From NCBI GenBank assembly GCA_027920525.1, contig CP115858.1:3782001-3846000 (forward strand): 64,000 bases of DNA, written 5' to 3'. Source of the stretch: Chryseobacterium daecheongense (GTDB lineage Bacteria > Bacteroidota > Bacteroidia > Flavobacteriales > Weeksellaceae). This document shows, one piece after another, positions 48,120-56,626 of this stretch (positions are counted from its first letter, which is position 1; every line of letters starts with the position of its first letter). The translations under genes and the position numbers were made by a program. The notes under the pieces were generated by a model. It was not told the DNA's origin. It saw only the letters and a program-made list of their open reading frames with translations, and searched no databases.

Positions 48120-48193
48120 GGTCCTATAGCTCAGTTGGTTAGAGCACCTGACTCATAATCAGGTGGTCCCTGGTTCGAGCCCAGGTGGGACCA
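48120..48193 (+). tRNA. tRNA with CAU anticodon (tRNA-Met, or lysidine-type tRNA-Ile2)
   Basis: A complete cloverleaf can be folded: acceptor GGTCCTA with TGGGACC (one wobble), D arm with AGCTCAGTTGGTTAGAGC, anticodon stem CCTGA/TCAGG with loop CTCATAA, and T arm with GGTTCGAGCC. The discriminator is A; CCA is not encoded. The acceptor with CC at positions 4-5 resembles tRNA-Ile2 of other bacteria more than elongator tRNA-Met, but I cannot decide. It is not an initiator by its D-arm features. The 3' end is the attachment site of the island that follows, with an exact 13-bp copy at 55604. Confidence 0.92.
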
Positions 48194-48194
48194 C
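48182..48194 (+). repeat. Left attachment repeat (attL-like), inside the tRNA 3' end
   Basis: CAGGTGGGACCAC occurs here as the end of the tRNA T arm and acceptor stem, and again at 55604-55616. Thirteen identical bases in direct orientation at the two ends of an AT-rich region mark a tRNA-targeted integration. Confidence 0.85.
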
Positions 48195-48208
48195 TACAAA
48201 AACTCGAC

Positions 48209-48234
48209 AAGCCCCTATTCATGGGGCTTTTTTA
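48209..48234 (+). terminator. Terminator of the tRNA transcript
   Basis: AAGCCCC and GGGGCTT form a 7-bp stem (loop TATTCAT) followed by T6. By the att model it came with the island, replacing the original downstream sequence. Confidence 0.8.
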
Positions 48235-48499
48235 TTTCCCAAAATCACAACGCTGAAATATACGCTTAAACTTTCTCGGAAAAGCCTTGCTGGATTGACT
48301 TTTCAAGAATATGGTTCTATTTTAAAATAAAAATTAAAATGACTTTGTGATTTCAAAATTACAGAAGTTATTCTCCTGCTTTATATCTGTATTGCCTTTG
48401 CCTAAAGAGATTGAGAAAATTTCCATTTTCGTCAATCTCCGATATCCCTTCAGATTCCACCAAATATTTTTATCTTAGTTCTTCCGAAAGCCCTGTTTT
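48235..48499. other. Left end of the island without a gene
   Basis: 265 bp with no convincing reading frame, of intermediate base composition. It contains ACGCTTAAAC (48262-48271), repeated at 55488-55497 near the right end, possibly integrase arm sites. I see no clear promoter for the following operon. Confidence 0.4.
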
Positions 48500-49051
48500 A
48501 TGACTGAATATGATTTAACAGAAATTCCGATCAAATCTTCGGTAAAGATATTTAGATTTTTAAATTACTTTTTAGAGAAGAAAAATCTTGATCCTGCATA
48601 CTTTGAAAGTAATCTGAATAAGTTTTCCGAAGAAGAATTATTTTTCCTGTTCAAATATGCTTCAAAGTATTTTGAGTACAATGAAGGGAGTTTCTTATTT
48701 AACTGGGTAAAGGAAATCAATTATTTATACGGTTTTGAGGATAGTAAAGATTATCTGGCAGAAATTATTTCTAATGCTGACCAACTTATCACTATAATAA
48801 CAGATCGTGAAATTCTAAAATTTTTGGAGAAAGAATACATACATTTCAAAAAAAGCAAAGAAGCGTATTTTAAATTTGACTTTATCGAACCTGTTAAACA
48901 GAATATTGGAATAGAGGTTAAAAAATATGCTTTAAAAAGATATGACCGTATTCCGTTGTATGTAAATGAAGAACGTTTTAATAGCTTCAAAGAAGACTTT
49001 CTCAATTTTGTTATTTTTATTATAATTATTTATAACCATGGAATTATATAG
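48500..49051 (+). CDS. Small helical protein encoded with the CHAT protease
   Basis: 183 residues, predicted nearly all alpha-helical and soluble, AT-rich coding sequence. I recognise no family. The C-terminus (FNSFKEDFLNFVIFIIIIYNHGII) is hydrophobic but overlaps the next gene, so that part may be shaped by the overlap. Its stop codon lies 14 nt inside the CHAT gene, which makes translational coupling and a joint function likely: a regulator, inhibitor or sensor partner of the protease is the natural inference. First cargo gene of the tRNA island. Confidence 0.65.
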   Translation: MTEYDLTEIPIKSSVKIFRFLNYFLEKKNLDPAYFESNLNKFSEEELFFLFKYASKYFEYNEGSFLFNWVKEINYLYGFEDSKDYLAEIISNADQLITIITDREILKFLEKEYIHFKKSKEAYFKFDFIEPVKQNIGIEVKKYALKRYDRIPLYVNEERFNSFKEDFLNFVIFIIIIYNHGII

Positions 49052-52000
49052 AGAAATCATATTAAAAGAAAATCCTTTTTCATTAGAATTTGACATTGAG
49101 AAATTAAATGAATTAATTGAAGATGAGAATTTAGGGGATGAAAACAAAGATATTATTGACTTTTTATTTTTGTGCCATCAAATATTCAGAAATTGTTATA
49201 AGGGATTTATAGAAGTTTTTGAGGCACTCAAACTTACCTATGAAGAATCTATAAGATTTATATATGTAGTAGTTAATTATCATTATAACGAAATTCAAAA
49301 ATTTTATTTCGAGCAATTAAAGTCAACTAGAGATGAACGTAATGTAATTAATTTGGAATCAGCTGTTTTTGAAAAGATTAATTTTGAAAATGGTTTAAAT
49401 ATTCCTGTAGGGCAAGGAATGGAAAAGGGAGGTGATGTTGTTATTATTCTTTTAGAGTTTTTCATTTTGTTAGGTAAAGAATTAATAGGAAAAAAATGTA
49501 TTGATGATTTCCCAGATTTTTTATTAGCAGAATCATCTACGAAATTATGGAGTTTAGCTTCAGAGCTCTATGCATTTAATTCTTTTTATGAAATTGTGAA
49601 GTATGAAAATGGAAATGTATTTATTGAAGAAGATGCCAAGGTAATTAAAATAAAAAAATCTGAGAAAAATATAAAACTGACCACTTTAGAAGTTATAGGG
49701 GAAGTAAGAAGTCTAAATAACTATAGTGAATACTCTTATGGATTGAAAAGCTTTTTAAAAGAAAAAAGAAGAGAAAAGTATTTTGATTCTATAAAAATTC
49801 AAAAGGGAGAAATTTTTCCAAATGTAGGTTATAAAAACTCCAATGAATCATTTATTCGTGATGCTGTTTTATCTCTTAGAACAGGAAATATATTTTCAAA
49901 GGATGACTATGGGGGATTAGATTTAATTGATTTAATTAAAATATTTAGTTCTATTTCTCAATTAGTGAAAAAAGTATCACAAGAAGTTTTTAGTAAAAAC
50001 TATACTATAAAGAATATACCCTTTGTTATTAATAAAGATTTATTGATTGAGAAAATTAGCTTTATCACAAACTTGGATAGTGATAAAATAGTTCCTGTAA
50101 TTAATTCTATTACTGACAAAAATGATTCTCCATATTTTTGGCGAAAACCCTTATTTGAAAGTGATAATAAAATATATTTATCATTTTCATTACTTAAAGC
50201 ACCAAATTATAGTTTGTTGCTAGAGAGCTATTGTGAAACTTTGACAATAGATTTAGTTGGGAAACAACAGAGGTTCAAAAATTACATATTGTCTGAACTT
50301 ACAGATATTGAATATTGTAAAATTATAATTGATGAGGAAATTTCAAATGTGATTCTTTTAGAACTCCAAGATTACTATCTATCAATTAATACTTTTTATA
50401 TTACACAATTTCCAATTGAGAAAAAAGAAAATCTTGACTATTTAGACAAAATTAGTCTTGAGATTTCAAAAATAACGGAAAAATTAAAAGTTTTAAATAA
50501 CACTGGAGAAAAGCCATATATTCCAATTATTTTGACTAATTATAATAAATATTCTGGTTTAATATTAAATGAAATACCTGTCTTAGATATTATTTTATTA
50601 AATAATTATTTAGTTACAGGAGCTTTTCAAAAAGGACAAATTATCAGGAATAAAAACAAAATAAAACAAGATATTCTAAGTGGCTTCACATACTATGATG
50701 ATGAAGACGATTTTAACAACAATCTTTTAAACTTTTTATATTATCCCGTTCCTGTATATGAAATCAAAAATAAAATATACTGGTTAGAAACTCCTGTACT
50801 GCCTTCAGATGCAAAGATGCAGATTTATCTTGACAATTATAATTATGAAAGTGAAGAGGGAAATATTGAATATGAATTAACTCTCTTATCTGAAACGCTA
50901 AAACGTCAATATCTAACTAATCCTGAAGGTAAATTAAATCATTTGGCAAATAAAGTTATATTATTTAGAATAACAAATATATTTCACTATATAACTTTTA
51001 GCAAATACAAATTAACTTCATACAGACATCAATTAATTAATGTCTTTTCTGAAATTAATGTTAATGGTTATATACATTTACTGCATTATTTCAGAATCTC
51101 ATTGAGGTATCTAAATAACGTCAAATTAAAAAAAACTATAAAGTTTAAATCGGTAAAATATAACAGCGATCAAGTTTTTCAAAGTTTAGAAAAAAACTTT
51201 AAAAAAAATAATAAGTTTAGCGTTACTACATTAGATTTTGAACATAAATATTCAAAAGAAGAGGAGAAGGAAATTATTTCTCTAGCGATAGATGTGATTT
51301 CAACTTTAACAATCAAAAAATATGAACCAGAAGAAATAGAAAACTATTTATTAATGCTAGCCATCATTCGATATTTTAAAGCAAAGTATAATTTGAATGA
51401 TTATTTCTATTTGGGTGCTAGCAATATAATTTCAGCTTTAAATCATAATTTCCTATATCAACAAGCAAGAAATTTATCCGAAGAAATATTTGCAATTGCA
51501 ATAAAAGAAGGAAAGGAATTCAAAGGTTGGGGAACATTATTTATGTGTTCTGATCAGCAACGTAATAAATTTAATTCCCTTATTTATAGTTGCTTTTATC
51601 TTAACTCATTATCTGTAGTTGACAAATTACCGTATACGGAAGCAATAGATGTATTTTATAATATTTTAAAGTTTGCTAGAAGTTTAGAATTGCCTGAAGT
51701 TCTAGATGATGTATTTAATTTTATGATAAGTTTAAAATTAGAAGAATATGATTTTCAGAAAGCTCATTTAACATATTATTTATCTATAGCAAATAGAAAA
51801 CAAAAAGATAGAGAAAAAATAGTAGATGATTCTATTGTGTTTTTCAGTAAAAATAGAGAGCGTATTTTTAAATATGGAGATAAGGGGGCAATACCTTGGT
51901 TGAATTATTTTTATAATGTAAAAAGACTAAATGATGAAGGATTTAAGACTGTAAATGTGGATGATATTATTAAATCAATAGAAGATATTTTAAATGAAGA

Positions 52001-53324
52001 AGATGTCTTACCTATAAAAAGTAGACATTTTTATAATGCAGATACAAAAGAAAATTTTATTAAGAACTTAAAAAGGATATTTTCAACGTATTATGTTTAT
52101 GATTTTGTATCTGAGATAACCAATCTTGAAATGGATACAAATGTCATTATTGAAAATGCCATAAAGGAAAATGATTTTGAAAGCATACTATTAACTGGAA
52201 TTGTTCTTAACGATATTCGCCTTATTTATAAAGAAAGCAATAATGTTAGTGGTGAAGAAGTAGGGTTTATTATTAATAATTCAAATAGTGACATATTTGA
52301 TCAATATTTGAAAAATATTTTAGATAAACTAACATTAAAGCCAAAACAATTATTCGTATACTTTTTTAGTCATAAAAATAAAGTTTATTATCTTATGATT
52401 AATCATGAGAAAAAAATTATGATTAAAGATGCCATGACTTGGCACTCTAATTATAATTTTTTAAAGAGTAAAAATAAATTTTACTTTAATTCTGCTGATT
52501 ATTATGGAATTGAAGAACAAGAAGAACATTATTCAGAGTTGATAGAGGAATTAAAGTATACTTCAATAGATATAAAAGAGGAGTTTGAAGAACTACTTAT
52601 TACCACAAATTTAGAAGTTTCTAAAACTCCATTTAATCTAATTGTAAATAATGGAGATTTTATTGGCTCAAATAAACCTATTACAAATGTTTTATTAATC
52701 GATTGGTTTATAGAAAATTGCGATGAGGTAATAATAGAAAATTTACTAATAAATTGTTGGATACCTATTGAAGATGGGGATCCTACGTTAAATCTAGGAT
52801 ATGACAAAATAAAACCTGTTTTTGACGAATTTAAAATAAAAACTTTTACTAAAAGCATTCCTGAGGTGCCATTTGATAAGGATATTAATATCTTTTTTGC
52901 TCATGGAGAATTAGATGAAATTGGTTTTAAGGTGGTTTCTGTTAATGAAGAAAAATTTGTTGTTAACAAAGAAAAAATTTTTGGTTATGGAAAAATAGCA
53001 ATATTATTTATTTGTCATTCAGGGTCTATTAATGAAGACTTGTTTTCAAATAAGGTTCAATCTCTCATTTATGAATTAATTCAATATGGTTATAGTTCTG
53101 TAATAGCTCCATTTTGGGCATTAGAAGCTACTATCCCATCTTTTTGGTTAAGATTTTTTTTAGAAAACTTTAGAGAGGGATATACAATAAGTGAATCTGT
53201 GTATTTAGCAAACAATAGTTTAGCTGATTATCAACAAGAAATTTCAGATTCATTTTATGTGCCTGAAGGGAGATTAGCGATGCATTTGTATGGTAATCCT
53301 AATATTACATTAAAAACAATATGA
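49038..53324 (+). CDS. Large CHAT-domain (caspase-like) protease, candidate defence protein
   Basis: 1428 residues. The last 180 or so form a CHAT peptidase domain: the catalytic His1289 is in NIFFAHGELDEIG and the catalytic Cys1326 in ILFICHSGSINE, followed by the usual tail (SSVIAPFWALEATIPSFWLRFFLENFREG, MHLYGNPNITL). Residues about 408-560 resemble a restriction-endonuclease-like region in its outline (helix FKNYILSEL, then strands, ending IPIILTNYNKYSGLILNEIPVLDIILLNNYL), but the catalytic Asp and ExK are not evident. Residues about 760-1000 are helical, TPR-like by pattern only. The first 400 residues are unrecognised. No membrane segment. AT-rich throughout; cotranscribed with the small gene upstream. 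Confidence 0.75.
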   Translation: MELYREIILKENPFSLEFDIEKLNELIEDENLGDENKDIIDFLFLCHQIFRNCYKGFIEVFEALKLTYEESIRFIYVVVNYHYNEIQKFYFEQLKSTRDERNVINLESAVFEKINFENGLNIPVGQGMEKGGDVVIILLEFFILLGKELIGKKCIDDFPDFLLAESSTKLWSLASELYAFNSFYEIVKYENGNVFIEEDAKVIKIKKSEKNIKLTTLEVIGEVRSLNNYSEYSYGLKSFLKEKRREKYFDSIKIQKGEIFPNVGYKNSNESFIRDAVLSLRTGNIFSKDDYGGLDLIDLIKIFSSISQLVKKVSQEVFSKNYTIKNIPFVINKDLLIEKISFITNLDSDKIVPVINSITDKNDSPYFWRKPLFESDNKIYLSFSLLKAPNYSLLLESYCETLTIDLVGKQQRFKNYILSELTDIEYCKIIIDEEISNVILLELQDYYLSINTFYITQFPIEKKENLDYLDKISLEISKITEKLKVLNNTGEKPYIPIILTNYNKYSGLILNEIPVLDIILLNNYLVTGAFQKGQIIRNKNKIKQDILSGFTYYDDEDDFNNNLLNFLYYPVPVYEIKNKIYWLETPVLPSDAKMQIYLDNYNYESEEGNIEYELTLLSETLKRQYLTNPEGKLNHLANKVILFRITNIFHYITFSKYKLTSYRHQLINVFSEINVNGYIHLLHYFRISLRYLNNVKLKKTIKFKSVKYNSDQVFQSLEKNFKKNNKFSVTTLDFEHKYSKEEEKEIISLAIDVISTLTIKKYEPEEIENYLLMLAIIRYFKAKYNLNDYFYLGASNIISALNHNFLYQQARNLSEEIFAIAIKEGKEFKGWGTLFMCSDQQRNKFNSLIYSCFYLNSLSVVDKLPYTEAIDVFYNILKFARSLELPEVLDDVFNFMISLKLEEYDFQKAHLTYYLSIANRKQKDREKIVDDSIVFFSKNRERIFKYGDKGAIPWLNYFYNVKRLNDEGFKTVNVDDIIKSIEDILNEEDVLPIKSRHFYNADTKENFIKNLKRIFSTYYVYDFVSEITNLEMDTNVIIENAIKENDFESILLTGIVLNDIRLIYKESNNVSGEEVGFIINNSNSDIFDQYLKNILDKLTLKPKQLFVYFFSHKNKVYYLMINHEKKIMIKDAMTWHSNYNFLKSKNKFYFNSADYYGIEEQEEHYSELIEELKYTSIDIKEEFEELLITTNLEVSKTPFNLIVNNGDFIGSNKPITNVLLIDWFIENCDEVIIENLLINCWIPIEDGDPTLNLGYDKIKPVFDEFKIKTFTKSIPEVPFDKDINIFFAHGELDEIGFKVVSVNEEKFVVNKEKIFGYGKIAILFICHSGSINEDLFSNKVQSLIYELIQYGYSSVIAPFWALEATIPSFWLRFFLENFREGYTISESVYLANNSLADYQQEISDSFYVPEGRLAMHLYGNPNITLKTI

Positions 53325-53385
53325 ATAAAAAAAATATAAATAAATTAAATCTATTTGATTATTTTAATATAAAATTTAATATAAA

Positions 53386-53736
53386 ATGATAAAAAGTAAG
53401 TATTTAAAAGAATTTCAGAAACGACTTCCTGAAGATATTAAAATAGTTGACGAAACTTCATTTGATTTTACGGAGGATGAAGTTATCGGTATTTTTTCAT
53501 GGTTAAAATATTTTAATCACCATTATGAAATTTATAGTAAAAATGAATCCCCCAAAATTATATTTCCAATAATTTCAAAAAGAATGCGTCTTGATTTTGG
53601 ACTTTATATTGTCAAAAGTGATACTGAGCCGTATAAAGGTCAACATAATATTTATATTTCAGAAAATGGGAAATTATTGACAGGAAAAGTTGAAAAACAG
53701 TCTGTAAATAAAGTTATTAATACTTGGAATTTATAA
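53386..53736 (+). CDS. Small protein of unknown function, island gene
   Basis: 116 residues, soluble, mixed alpha/beta by eye, with no motif I recognise. It follows the CHAT gene by 61 nt on the same strand and precedes the next small gene by 38 nt, so it may be in the same transcript. The clean frame, start ATG and consistent AT-rich codon use support a real gene. Whether it is a substrate, inhibitor or unrelated cargo is open. Confidence 0.6.
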   Translation: MIKSKYLKEFQKRLPEDIKIVDETSFDFTEDEVIGIFSWLKYFNHHYEIYSKNESPKIIFPIISKRMRLDFGLYIVKSDTEPYKGQHNIYISENGKLLTGKVEKQSVNKVINTWNL

Positions 53737-53774
53737 ATCATATAATATTACAGAACTTAAAATAATATATAATT

Positions 53775-54155
53775 ATGCTAACAAATTTTTTTAGAATAAA
53801 CCTACCTTACGGAATTGCAAGAAATGATAAAGATGAATGGATGGCTTTCAATAGAGAATATATGCCTCTTGGATTTAATGATCTGAGTTTTAAAGAGCAT
53901 GTTGGGAAAAGCTACAATGATAACCCGATCTATACAAAATATAATGGGTTTACTGAGAAATTACTATTAGAGCTTTCTTTTGATGGAGAAAGAGGAGTTA
54001 GGAGAGATTCTAATGGGAAAATTGAAACAGTTTTTCTTTACAATGATGGTACAAATCCTTCAAGTGGACATGCTTCAAAAAGTGATGAAGAAAAAATGTG
54101 GAATAATTATTTTCAAAAATTGCAGAAAGTTTCAAAATTAAAACGAAAGGTTTAG
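53775..54155 (+). CDS. Small protein of unknown function, 'FRINLPYGIARN' type
   Basis: 126 residues. The N-terminal part reads FFRINLPYGIARNDKDEWMAFNREYMPLGFND, a distinctive pattern I associate with small hypothetical proteins in bacterial accessory regions but cannot name. The C-terminus is Lys-rich (KVSKLKRKV). No signal peptide or membrane helix. A hairpin with a T-run follows at 54177-54208, so this is probably the last gene of the transcript that starts with the CHAT operon or the pair 53386-54155. Confidence 0.6.
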   Translation: MLTNFFRINLPYGIARNDKDEWMAFNREYMPLGFNDLSFKEHVGKSYNDNPIYTKYNGFTEKLLLELSFDGERGVRRDSNGKIETVFLYNDGTNPSSGHASKSDEEKMWNNYFQKLQKVSKLKRKV

Positions 54156-54176
54156 TTAATGTCAGAAAATCAAGTA

Positions 54177-54208
54177 GAGCAGCCTGATTAGGCTGTTCTC
54201 AATTTTTT
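54177..54208 (+). terminator. Terminator after the small island genes
   Basis: GAG-CAGCC and GGCTG-TT-CTC form a stem with a TT bulge, followed by AATTTTTTT. It divides the island cargo into two transcripts. Confidence 0.65.
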
Positions 54209-54398
54209 TGATAAAATTTTAGAATAGCATTAGAGAAAATAATTTGTAGAAGTTTTTATAAAATATACTTCACTTTAATATTTTTAGATTATTACTCAAA
54301 TTTAAAGAATAACTTTTTATATGATAAAATTTCTCCGGAACTTTTTAAGGAAATAAATTTCCTTAATTATTTTCAAAAATCACTATTGAAATATTATA

Positions 54399-54406
54399 TA
54401 TATTTG
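54399..54406 (+). promoter_or_regulatory. -7 element for the transmembrane island gene
   Basis: TATATTTG fits TAnnTTTG 14 nt before the ATG at 54421. No TTG is well spaced. The gap 54209-54398 has no gene. Confidence 0.45.
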
Positions 54407-54420
54407 ACTTTTAACAAATA

Positions 54421-55401
54421 ATGACTGAAAGACTAGAATCATATATAGAAAGCCAAAGTAGACTTGAAATTCACTATTGGTTTAATGATAATACACACAC
54501 AATGGATGCTATTGTTCAGAATAGGTGTGAATATGAAGTATTGGGAATAATTAAAGAAGTTGCGAAGATTTATTCTTTAAATATTTCCATTGAGACAGAG
54601 CCATTTGGGGAAGGTGGATTAAAAAGATGGTTAAAAGTAATATCAAAAGAAGAAAATAAAAAAGCAACTATATCCACAGCAATTATCACTGCCTTACTTT
54701 CTGTAATATTAATAGTTCCGTTAACCAAAATCTCTGAAAAATTTATAGATAAAATTTTTGAAGATACAGAAATGAGTGATCTGCAAAAAGAGAAATTAAA
54801 GTTAGAAATTGATAAATTAAAAAAAGAAAATTCAGTTAATATTCTTGAAAACCCAGTGATAAAAAAGCGTAAATCTAACTTTTATGAAACTTTAGAGAAA
54901 TATCCAAAAGTAGATAAGATTTCATTTGAGGTGACTGATGAAAACAAAAGTAGGATTCAAAATGAGAGAGTTGTTAAAAAGAATGAATTTAAAGAGTTCA
55001 TTTTGATTAGTGACGATTTAGATCCTATTGAAATTGAAGATGCAATAATAGAAATAATTTCCCCTGTTTTGAAAAAAGGACATTACAAATGGACAGGATA
55101 TTTAAACGGTGAACCTATTAACTTTAATATGAAATCTAATGAGTTTAAAACATTAGTCCAAAATGGCAAAATAGAATTTAAGAATGGCTCTTCAATAAAT
55201 TGCGCACTTATTGTGAAGAAAAAAATTGATAATGATGGAGCAGTTAAAATCACTGGTTATGATGTTATAAGGGTAAATCATTATTTTGAGAACGAAAAAC
55301 CGATTGAAACGAAAGAAGGAAAAAACCATCGACAAAAAAAGGATTATGAAAAAAATCAACCCAACTTATTCACATATCTTGATGAAGAAGTTGGAAATTA
55401 A
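54421..55401 (+). CDS. Transmembrane protein with coiled coil, candidate effector, island gene
   Basis: 326 residues. An N-terminal soluble part (about 1-80; LEIHYWFNDNTHTMDAIVQNR, FGEGGLKRWLKVI) precedes one hydrophobic helix (TAIITALLSVILIVPLTKI, about 83-101), a charged coiled coil (about 115-140) and a C-terminal alpha/beta domain (about 165-290; LKKGHYKWTGYLNGEPINFNMKS) with a basic tail. I know the family only as recurrent hypothetical proteins. Separate promoter element and preceding terminator suggest independent expression. As the only membrane protein of the island it is the candidate effector or protease target; that is inference. Confidence 0.6.
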   Translation: MTERLESYIESQSRLEIHYWFNDNTHTMDAIVQNRCEYEVLGIIKEVAKIYSLNISIETEPFGEGGLKRWLKVISKEENKKATISTAIITALLSVILIVPLTKISEKFIDKIFEDTEMSDLQKEKLKLEIDKLKKENSVNILENPVIKKRKSNFYETLEKYPKVDKISFEVTDENKSRIQNERVVKKNEFKEFILISDDLDPIEIEDAIIEIISPVLKKGHYKWTGYLNGEPINFNMKSNEFKTLVQNGKIEFKNGSSINCALIVKKKIDNDGAVKITGYDVIRVNHYFENEKPIETKEGKNHRQKKDYEKNQPNLFTYLDEEVGN

Positions 55402-55603
55402 TTATATTGCCAATTTCATACTATTCTTTGTAAAATTGTCAAGACTAGGAAATTTCTGTATCAGAAAGTATTTTTTTAAGCCTAAACACGCTTAAACCCA
55501 TCTGCATCCACAGCGCTTCACACAATTACAATATTTTAATAAATAGCTGATATAAAGTAAATCTAACTCCATCTGACTCCAAGTAAATACACCGGGGACA
55601 TTA

Positions 55604-55616
55604 CAGGTGGGACCAC
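55604..55616 (+). repeat. Right attachment repeat (attR-like), displaced tRNA 3' end
   Basis: CAGGTGGGACCAC, identical to the tRNA 3' end at 48182-48194, in the same orientation. The remaining 61 nt of the tRNA are absent, so it is not a second tRNA gene but a target-site remnant. Confidence 0.85.
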
Positions 55617-55624
55617 AGAAAATT

Positions 55625-55657
55625 AAACAGCTTATAGTAATGTGAGCGGTTTTTTTA
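55625..55657 (+). terminator. Probable original terminator of the tRNA, displaced by the island
   Basis: AAACAGCT and AGCGGTTT pair over 8 bp with one mismatch, then a T-run. It follows the displaced tRNA end by 8 nt, just where a tRNA terminator would lie before integration. Confidence 0.45.
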
Positions 55658-55861: not shown

Positions 55862-56626
55862 ATGTCAATAACAAACGAATCCGAATTAATAGGAATGCAA
55901 AAAGCAAGTGAAGCAGTTGCCTATACCTTAAAGGAAATGACCAACTATGCTCAACCTGGAATGACGACAAAAGAACTTGATGAGTTTGGAGCAAAAATAC
56001 TTTCTGACTTTGGCGCTAAATCGGCTCCTTATCTGACCTATGGATTTCCAGGTTGGACATGCATCAGCGTAGATAATGAATTCTGCCATGGTATTCCAAC
56101 GGAAGAAAGAGTTCTGAAAGAAGGAGATTTAATTAATATCGATGTTTCAGCAGAGTTAAATGGATTCTGGGCGGATAATGGAGGTTCGTTTATTATTGGG
56201 GAAGATGTTCATCAGCATCAGAAATTAGTGGATGCTTCTAAAAATATTCTTGAAAAAGCAATTAACAGTATTAAAGGTGGGGTTAAAATTTCAGATATCG
56301 GATGGCTTATGGAGACTGAGGCTAAGAAAAGAGGTTTTAAAGTGATTAAAAATCTTGCCGGGCATGGCATTGGAAGAAGTCTGCACGAACAGCCGGATGA
56401 TCTGCTGAATTATAAAAACCGTTATGATTCCAGACGATTCAAAAAGAATTCGGTTGTTGCTATCGAAACATTTATCTCAACCACTTCCAGCCTTGCCGTT
56501 GAGCTGAATGACGGATGGACCATGGTAGGAAATAAAGGTGGGTACATGGCACAGCATGAACATACAATCATCGTGACTGATGGGAAGCCGGTAATTTTAA
56601 CAGAGATGAACGGGATTCTTAATTAA
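55862..56626 (+). CDS. map: Type I methionine aminopeptidase
   Basis: Removes N-terminal Met from nascent proteins; cytoplasmic metalloenzyme of the pita-bread fold. Metal ligands are visible in order: NIDVSAELNGFWADNGG (two Asp), AGHGIGRSLHE (His), VAIETFIS (Glu) and AQHEHTIIV (Glu). 254 residues from the ATG at 55862; an in-frame TTG at 55790 lies upstream of the promoter element and is rejected. These genomes usually carry another map near ribosomal protein genes, so this may be a second copy (not checkable here). Confidence 0.92.
   Translation: MSITNESELIGMQKASEAVAYTLKEMTNYAQPGMTTKELDEFGAKILSDFGAKSAPYLTYGFPGWTCISVDNEFCHGIPTEERVLKEGDLINIDVSAELNGFWADNGGSFIIGEDVHQHQKLVDASKNILEKAINSIKGGVKISDIGWLMETEAKKRGFKVIKNLAGHGIGRSLHEQPDDLLNYKNRYDSRRFKKNSVVAIETFISTTSSLAVELNDGWTMVGNKGGYMAQHEHTIIVTDGKPVILTEMNGILN

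Follow-up and report, generated by a model that had tools for sequence, protein, structure and literature searches.

Known tRNA-integrated elements and the insert in Chryseobacterium daecheongense

Cis-mobilizable elements (CIMEs) are elements that have lost the integration and transfer genes and have retained attL and attR (PMC5704250), and pipolins are self-synthesizing, tRNA-integrated elements with piPolB (PMC7385651). Here we compare these and other described systems with an insert in Chryseobacterium daecheongense that lies at the 3' end of a tRNA gene with the anticodon CAU, within a stretch of 64,000 bp (contig CP115858.1, positions 3,782,001 to 3,846,000; hereafter, the window). A preliminary description of the window, made without database searches, had read this insert as a tRNA-integrated genomic island flanked by a 13-bp duplication. 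Comparison with other genomes supports that reading and suggests that the insert is very probably a member, shortened by internal deletion and left without an integrase, of a family of mobile elements that integrate at tRNA genes. The full-length members of this family (hereafter, full-length relatives) combine a backbone that includes a tyrosine recombinase with variable cargo.

Among the described kinds of elements, the gutted copy in the window is closest to a CIME: both cores are kept, there is no recombinase, the origin appears to be by deletion and the site is a tRNA gene (PMC5704250); a CIME-like tandem arrangement is seen in three relatives (G063, G151 and G042; G and L numbers are our handles for genomes and loci). 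However, CIMEs are described as decayed integrative and conjugative elements (ICEs) or integrative and mobilizable elements (PMC5704250), whereas no recognized transfer gene was found among the proteins scanned from the full-length relatives (30 proteins of G151, G083 and G121, covering part of their open reading frames (ORFs), four of them with PADLOC only). Also in contrast to CIMEs, these relatives carry their own polymerase and helicase, and no accreted working element was seen at the site. The closest described kind to the full-length relatives is the pipolins, with which they share a tRNA target, terminal direct repeats, a tyrosine recombinase, a DNA polymerase of their own and flexible cargo (PMC7385651); unlike pipolins, G151 has a family A polymerase with a separate exonuclease gene in place of piPolB, and the window's copy gave no polymerase match in Pfam. 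From phage satellites, the family differs in that no packaging or capsid gene was found among the proteins scanned and no viral contig was confirmed. Tycheposons use tRNA sites and carry replication genes, and in both respects, as well as in the tyrosine recombinase and the swappable cargo, tycheposons and other phage satellites resemble the full-length relatives. Both are named among helper-dependent elements (PMC11389934).

ICECleSHZ29 and related Chryseobacterium ICEs are inserted at the 3' end of a CAT tRNA gene, and other ICEs of this genus are located at other tRNA genes (PMC12561888, PMC8694125). ICECleSHZ29 differs from the window's island in that it occupies a different CAT tRNA gene, has a 17-bp repeat, tcccgtcttcgctacaa, and is a 75-kb ICE with resistance cargo (PMC12561888). 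The ssrA islands of Dehalococcoides likewise combine one conserved site and a conserved integration module with varied cargo, and some of them lack integration or transfer genes; in contrast to the family described here, they use a serine recombinase and an ssrA target (PMC3146451). No family of elements that pairs a family A polymerase with a recombinase specific for this tRNA was among the matches listed in literature searches that covered part of the matching papers. What is new here is an element family with conserved ends, varied cargo and apparently repeated loss of the backbone.

An island between two copies of a tRNA 3' end

The 13-bp core CAGGTGGGACCAC occurs exactly twice in the 4,858,345-bp genome (both strands searched), in the same orientation, at the two positions given for it in the preliminary description (Table 1). 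A chance origin of this repeat can be rejected, given that the pair is unique in the genome and that matching tRNA junctions are found in relatives. The gene adjoining the tRNA is present in all 118 sampled genomes of the genus, and in 117 of these the match extends to the last or last-but-one base of the tRNA. Eight of the 20 fetched loci that reach toward map were read; in six (L014, L017, L019, L021, L024 and L025), the tRNA is followed by a terminator and map, without an insert, and in the remaining two, 1.2-1.9 kb separate the tRNA from map. Within a second set of 20 loci, seven (L030, L031, L032, L035, L036, L040 and L042) have post-tRNA bases that match those after position 55616 over 50-56 bp with 80-91% identity. 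These seven junctions begin at the core, and map is absent downstream in the DNA read, so that they are evidence on the junction and do not imply a wholly empty site. Because the matches run from the core across position 55616 and adjoin an intact tRNA in all seven loci, the right core and the hairpin that follows it are very likely the displaced original end of the tRNA gene with its old terminator, which the preliminary description had raised as a possibility.

The insert between the cores has a GC content of 25.9% (0.259), against 36.7% in the rest of the window, where 415 overlapping segments of the same length span 0.348-0.390, none falling below 34.8%; the AT-richness noted earlier is thus borne out. 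A new terminator at the left end had also been described, and the element-borne hairpin found there, as well as the one at the right end, folds better than nearly all shuffled sequences; the old terminator folds less stably in the window (-9.9 kcal/mol) than in G112 (-18.3 kcal/mol), a genome labelled as the same species. The chromosome resumes, as described, with map (Table 1). The repeat, the insert-free relatives, the atypical GC content, the variable content of the site (see below), and the rebuilt tRNA end with its new terminator all support the interpretation of the insert as a tRNA-integrated genomic island.

Table 1. Features of the insert and its boundaries (positions in the window)
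Feature	Position	Strand	Remarks
Target tRNA gene, anticodon CAU	48120..48193/4	+	ARAGORN label tRNA-Met; probably tRNA-Ile2 (lysidine) by elimination
Left attachment core CAGGTGGGACCAC, rebuilt tRNA 3' end	48182..48194	+	
Conserved left end of the element family	48195..48500	+	E<1e-40 in 11 of 173 genus genomes, own genome included
New tRNA terminator hairpin, element-borne	48209..48229	+	-12.5 kcal/mol; stem kept in 8 aligned left ends
Putative arm-type motif ACGCTTAAAC, left	48262..48271	+	In 10 of 10 left ends examined
ORF1 remnant, 183 aa	48500..49051	+	First backbone gene, 337-374 aa in five relatives
Approximate deletion junction (backbone lost, cargo begins)	49005..49037	+	ORF1 similarity ends; G288 homology starts at the CHAT ATG
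1428-aa cargo protein, CHAT-like C-terminus	49038..53324	+	Candidate His 1289, Cys 1326
116-aa protein, unknown	53386..53736	+	No match at E<=1 in Pfam, PADLOC, NCBIfam, PHROGs
126-aa protein, unknown	53775..54155	+	Only weak NCBIfam matches far below cut-off
326-aa PDC-S42 defence candidate	54421..55401	+	PADLOC E=4.3e-110, residues 11-317
Conserved right end of the element family	55478..55603	+	E<1e-20 at 13 places in 12 of 173 genus genomes
Putative arm-type motif ACGCTTAAAC, right	55488..55497	+	In 11 of 11 right ends examined
Right attachment core CAGGTGGGACCAC, very likely displaced original tRNA 3' end	55604..55616	+	
Old tRNA terminator (very likely)	55625..55652	+	-9.9 kcal/mol
map, chromosome resumes	55862..56626	+	ATG at 55862; Peptidase_M24 E=2.4e-39 (Pfam)

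The ARAGORN label of the target gene is uninformative as to its identity, given that this program calls every CAU tRNA Met. We read 52 other tRNAs of this genome, which has 69 Rfam hits in all, and found no second CAU tRNA of the window's type among them. Four CAU genes among the 52 represent a single type, which we take to be the initiator tRNA. The lysidine type (tRNA-Ile2) is the third class of CAU tRNA. One other CAU gene, the elongator Met, matches the CAT gene occupied by the published Chryseobacterium ICEs over 15 bases; the first 16 bases of the published ICE repeat have no exact match in this genome, the elongator gene agreeing with the first 15. Since the initiator-like and elongator Met types are accounted for by other CAU genes, the window's CAU tRNA is, by elimination, probably of the third type, most likely tRNA-Ile2, rather than Met. 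The same gene is a hot spot for other elements as well (L007, L026, L028, L029, L033 and L039, in G073, G076, G111, G005, G022 and G054, respectively), the recombinases of which are only 23-28% identical to the recombinase of the family described here, and several genomes have 46-50-bp copies of the tRNA downstream of it.

A family of elements with conserved ends and variable content

Counting matches at E<1e-40 for the left end and at E<1e-20 for the right end, and leaving weaker matches uncounted, we found both ends of the island in 10 of the 173 genus genomes, namely the window's own (G000), G063, G112, G147, G016, G151, G121, G083, G103 and G135. The cargo enclosed by these ends varies among the family members. 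Eight of the ten genomes have a complete tRNA gene ahead of the left end; in the other two, G063 and G151, the left end follows a 43- or 21-base fragment of the tRNA, which amounts to a tandem arrangement, as also found in G042. When 84,980 species genomes were searched with a pattern derived from the right end, nine records matched, every one of them from Chryseobacterium; no viral contig matched, and the recombinase likewise yielded none that was confirmed. In G151, the main element is followed by a single-gene unit of 3.3 kb (L079:6882-10166), possibly a mini-element, which terminates in a right end of its own and encodes an nSTAND3 protein with an Mrr_cat-like N-terminus.

The 10-bp motif shared by the two ends of the window's island (Table 1) has a counterpart in a related element in G047 that resides in tRNA-Phe(GAA), with the 13-bp core CTGGAGAAACCAC at both ends in the same tRNA register. 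Compared with the window, this element is 83% identical in the left end and only 69% identical in the right end; its inner left end is close to that of the CAU-tRNA family, and the outer arms differ. At both of its ends, ACGCTTAAAC is replaced by ATGCTCAA. Because the motif is swapped at both ends of the tRNA-Phe element, we infer that ACGCTTAAAC and ATGCTCAA are putative arm sites of the recombinase. No close recombinase (E<=1e-60) was detected in G047. A left end of the tRNA-Phe type is also present in G166 (L092), with no right end found in the 15 kb fetched.

Evidence of exchange comes from the comparison of the element ends with the adjacent chromosome. The chromosome of G112 is ~98% identical to the window up to the tRNA and from map onward. 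The element ends of the two strains are only 87.0% (left) and 85.6% (right) identical and enclose no shared cargo, implying that at least one of the islands arrived or was replaced after the strains parted. Gene content at this site is not conserved, as two genomes labelled as one species have different genes between related ends. Across species, 6,955 bp of cargo and right side are 96.2% identical between G063 and G103, against 74.8% for a chromosomal marker beside the tRNA; the left ends of G112 and G083 are 98.0% identical (chromosomal marker, 85.4%), and those of the window and G063 are 96.3% identical (marker, 86.9%). Judging from these identities, cargo crosses species. In G112, a second insert of 3.7 kb with four genes (L006:7678-11505), flanked by copies of the old terminator region, is located between the right end of the element and map.

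Full-length relatives and probable loss of the backbone

In G151, G121, G083 and G135, the left end is followed by a common backbone that consists of ORF1, a small helix-turn-helix (HTH) protein, a helicase-like protein, an exonuclease, a polymerase, an unknown protein and the tyrosine recombinase. Profile searches were run on the proteins of G151 (and on the exonuclease of G121), and the genes of G121, G083, G135 and the decayed element of G063 were assigned by gene order and DNA similarity. For G151, these searches matched the HTH or excisionase-like protein to HTH_17, the primase-helicase-like protein to DUF5906 (below the cut-off) and phrog_28855 (E=1.3e-58), the 3'-5' exonuclease to DNA_pol_A_exo1 (E=1.8e-26), the polymerase to DNA_pol_A (E=1.7e-131) and the recombinase to Phage_integrase (E=5.1e-13). 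A close recombinase (E<=1e-60) is encoded in 5 of the 173 genomes, always inside an element of this family; among the ten two-ended genomes, it is intact in four, broken in one (G063, with four stops) and absent in five, including the window's. Profile searches of the proteins encoded in the window's insert revealed no integrase gene, and a search for a matching recombinase elsewhere in that genome gave none at E<=1e-60. Distant relatives of the helicase (31-37% identity) are encoded in L009, L122 and L121 (G058, G201 and G289); two genera have them downstream of the CAU tRNA, and a third has one near a tRNA-Arg; the stretches read at these loci gave no polymerase match to the family.

The lengths between the cores fit this division: 17.1, 23.2 and 29.4 kb in three intact members and 20.2 kb in G063, against 7.0 kb in G112, 7.4 kb in the window, 9.1 kb in G016 and 9.4 kb in G103, which are integrase-less. 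All four of the latter retain both cores and both ends, and in each of them, part of what lies between resembles a longer element. In the window, the remnant of ORF1 is 42% identical, over 179 columns, to residues 31-208 of the 345-residue protein of G121, and no backbone gene beyond approximately half of ORF1 was found in the insert; the gene for the CHAT-like protein comes immediately after this remnant. In G016, a left end like that of G083 leads into sequence corresponding to 11.9 kb in G083, ahead of cargo that the two elements have partly in common (81% over 1.9 kb). In G103, a G063-like left end is followed, after ~0.5 kb, by the G063 cargo at 13.5 kb. In G112, which was compared with both G083 and G063, a G083-like left end is joined to the lipoprotein-like region that precedes the cargo, the two alignments overlapping by 14 bp. 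Comparison of these elements indicates that the backbone was lost and the ends and cargo were kept, and given that the left junctions differ among the four, the deletions look independent. The left end in G103 is split by a gene that reads by eye as a transposase (L027:11165-12109).

Cargo

The preliminary description had assigned the genes of the insert to unknown families, which holds for the 116-aa and 126-aa proteins and does not hold for the PDC-S42 and CHAT-like proteins (Table 1). In the 1428-aa protein, His-Gly and Cys-His-Ser motifs, containing a putative catalytic dyad, are invariant in all five sequences compared, and plasmid proteins annotated as CHAT domain-containing match its C-terminus; no phage record matches this protein. 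The protein is found at full length in only 2 of the 316 genomes of the bacterial family; a full-length relative in another genus (G288) is 78% identical, with a DUF4238 gene and what looks by eye like a DNA methyltransferase gene nearby. Shorter relatives, with 27% identity, are found in three genomes. The PDC-S42 protein contains one hydrophobic segment, as seen by eye, and has a relative in G026, the gene for which is flanked by what look by eye like purA on one side and a conserved chromosomal gene on the other. The possibility that the two proteins form a single system is weakened by G288 and G026, each of which has one without the other in the stretches read.

The cargo of other family members includes Thoeris ThsA (E=3.6e-186) and ThsB (E=1.2e-72), methyltransferases, a weakly BrxD-like ATPase and an LRR-Roc-TIR protein, and several further cargo proteins have no defence match. 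In G083 (L083:737-11414), the Thoeris genes are found together with nucleotide-modification genes (Nmad2, MazG_C and HMUDK_hel) and the gene for the LRR-Roc-TIR protein. Taken together, the matches of the PDC-S42 and CHAT-like proteins and of the cargo of the relatives make phage defence the likely role of the cargo. The CHAT-type protein may be a protease effector, and the PDC-S42 protein may act at the membrane.

Origin and mobility of the island

As the comparison shows, full-length elements occupy the 3' end of the CAU tRNA gene, or a tandem tRNA fragment, between 13-bp cores; they supply a terminator for the rebuilt tRNA and carry the backbone from ORF1 to the tyrosine recombinase, followed by swappable, often immune-type cargo. 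These observations suggest the following scenario. The original integration in the window would have been mediated by a recombinase like that of the full-length elements, bound to the conserved ends; a deletion would then have removed the backbone, leaving the cargo and both ends. The island would now be unable to move on its own and could still recombine should a matching recombinase arrive.

Several observations weigh against this scenario, or narrow its base. No excision or transfer was observed. No full-length element with the window's cargo was found, so that the parent of this particular island is missing. The ends do not always come as a pair: G137 and G146 have a right end without a left end of the window's type, and G047 has a strong left end and only a weak right one. 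The shared motif by itself is within chance expectation, as a 10-mer in common with the left end also arose in 127 of 2000 mononucleotide shuffles of the right end. In L039, the sequence at the tRNA matches the old terminator (81%) although the integrase gene of another element follows, and for this reason terminator similarity alone is no proof of an empty site. The genome sample contains one genome per species, the window's species excepted, and G135 and G147, being split over contigs, are outside the length comparison. As for the cargo, Pfam gave no family for the 1428-aa protein, the AlphaFold model of residues 701-1428 (five sequences) is unusable (mean predicted local distance difference test score 45.5), and the 326-aa protein also matches, with 62.3 bits against a cut-off of 60, the NCBIfam family LAPAL_fam, which is named putative phage structural protein and is not a defence family.

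Of the alternatives, the one that fares best, even if we consider it rather doubtful, is that the short integrase-less forms constitute a non-autonomous tier, the integration and excision of which depend on recombinases supplied in trans by full-length elements, similarly to miniature inverted-repeat transposable elements or integrase-less integron cassettes. Such a role would be consistent with the intact cores and ends in G000, G112, G103 and G016 (apart from the inserted sequence that splits the left end in G103), with the proportion of recombinase-less members among the ten two-ended genomes, and with the different gutted islands in two chromosomes that are ~98% identical. However, no gutted structure is common to two species among the members compared, the differing left junctions fit separate deletions in place, and the genome of the window lacks a cognate recombinase at the threshold given above.

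Somewhat less plausible still is spread of the islands by homologous recombination via the tRNA and map flanks, in which case the site-specific functions would be irrelevant and decaying. The 250 bp of the right intergenic region are 87.6% identical between G112 and the window, next to a map gene that is ~98% identical, as if a longer tract had been exchanged. However, this stretch is non-coding and, in G112, adjoins the second 3.7-kb insert; on the left, identity drops from ~98% to ~85-87% at the tRNA end, and the junctions at sites without the insert are clean. Finally, it is improbable that the insert is an ordinary remnant, left by the decay of a prophage, ICE or mobilizable element from a previously described family: tyrosine recombinases, HTH proteins and replication genes are common in such elements, the PDC-S42 protein also matches the phage structural family mentioned above, and relatives of the helicase occur in 5 of 50,697 phage and 3 of 72,556 plasmid records, but the identity of these phage and plasmid helicases is only 27-35%, the 30 proteins scanned gave no relaxase, conjugation or virion family, and neither the right-end pattern nor the recombinase gave a confirmed viral contig.

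We thus favor the view that the island is a deletion derivative of this family. A broader model, which we put forward only tentatively and would not expect to hold in full, is that of a two-tier vehicle for defence genes, in which full-length elements with a polymerase, helicase and recombinase of their own are accompanied by gutted satellites that are reduced to ends and immune-type cargo and are moved in trans by the recombinases of passing full-length elements, and two sister lineages have been re-targeted to different tRNAs through a joint change of the core and the arm motifs.

Concluding remarks

The family provides a compact natural series of full-length, decaying, gutted and empty states at one tRNA gene in one genus, along which one can trace, from one junction to the next, how mobility genes are lost and immune-type cargo is retained. 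Searches with the conserved ends offer a direct way to uncharacterized cargo, including the large CHAT-like protein.

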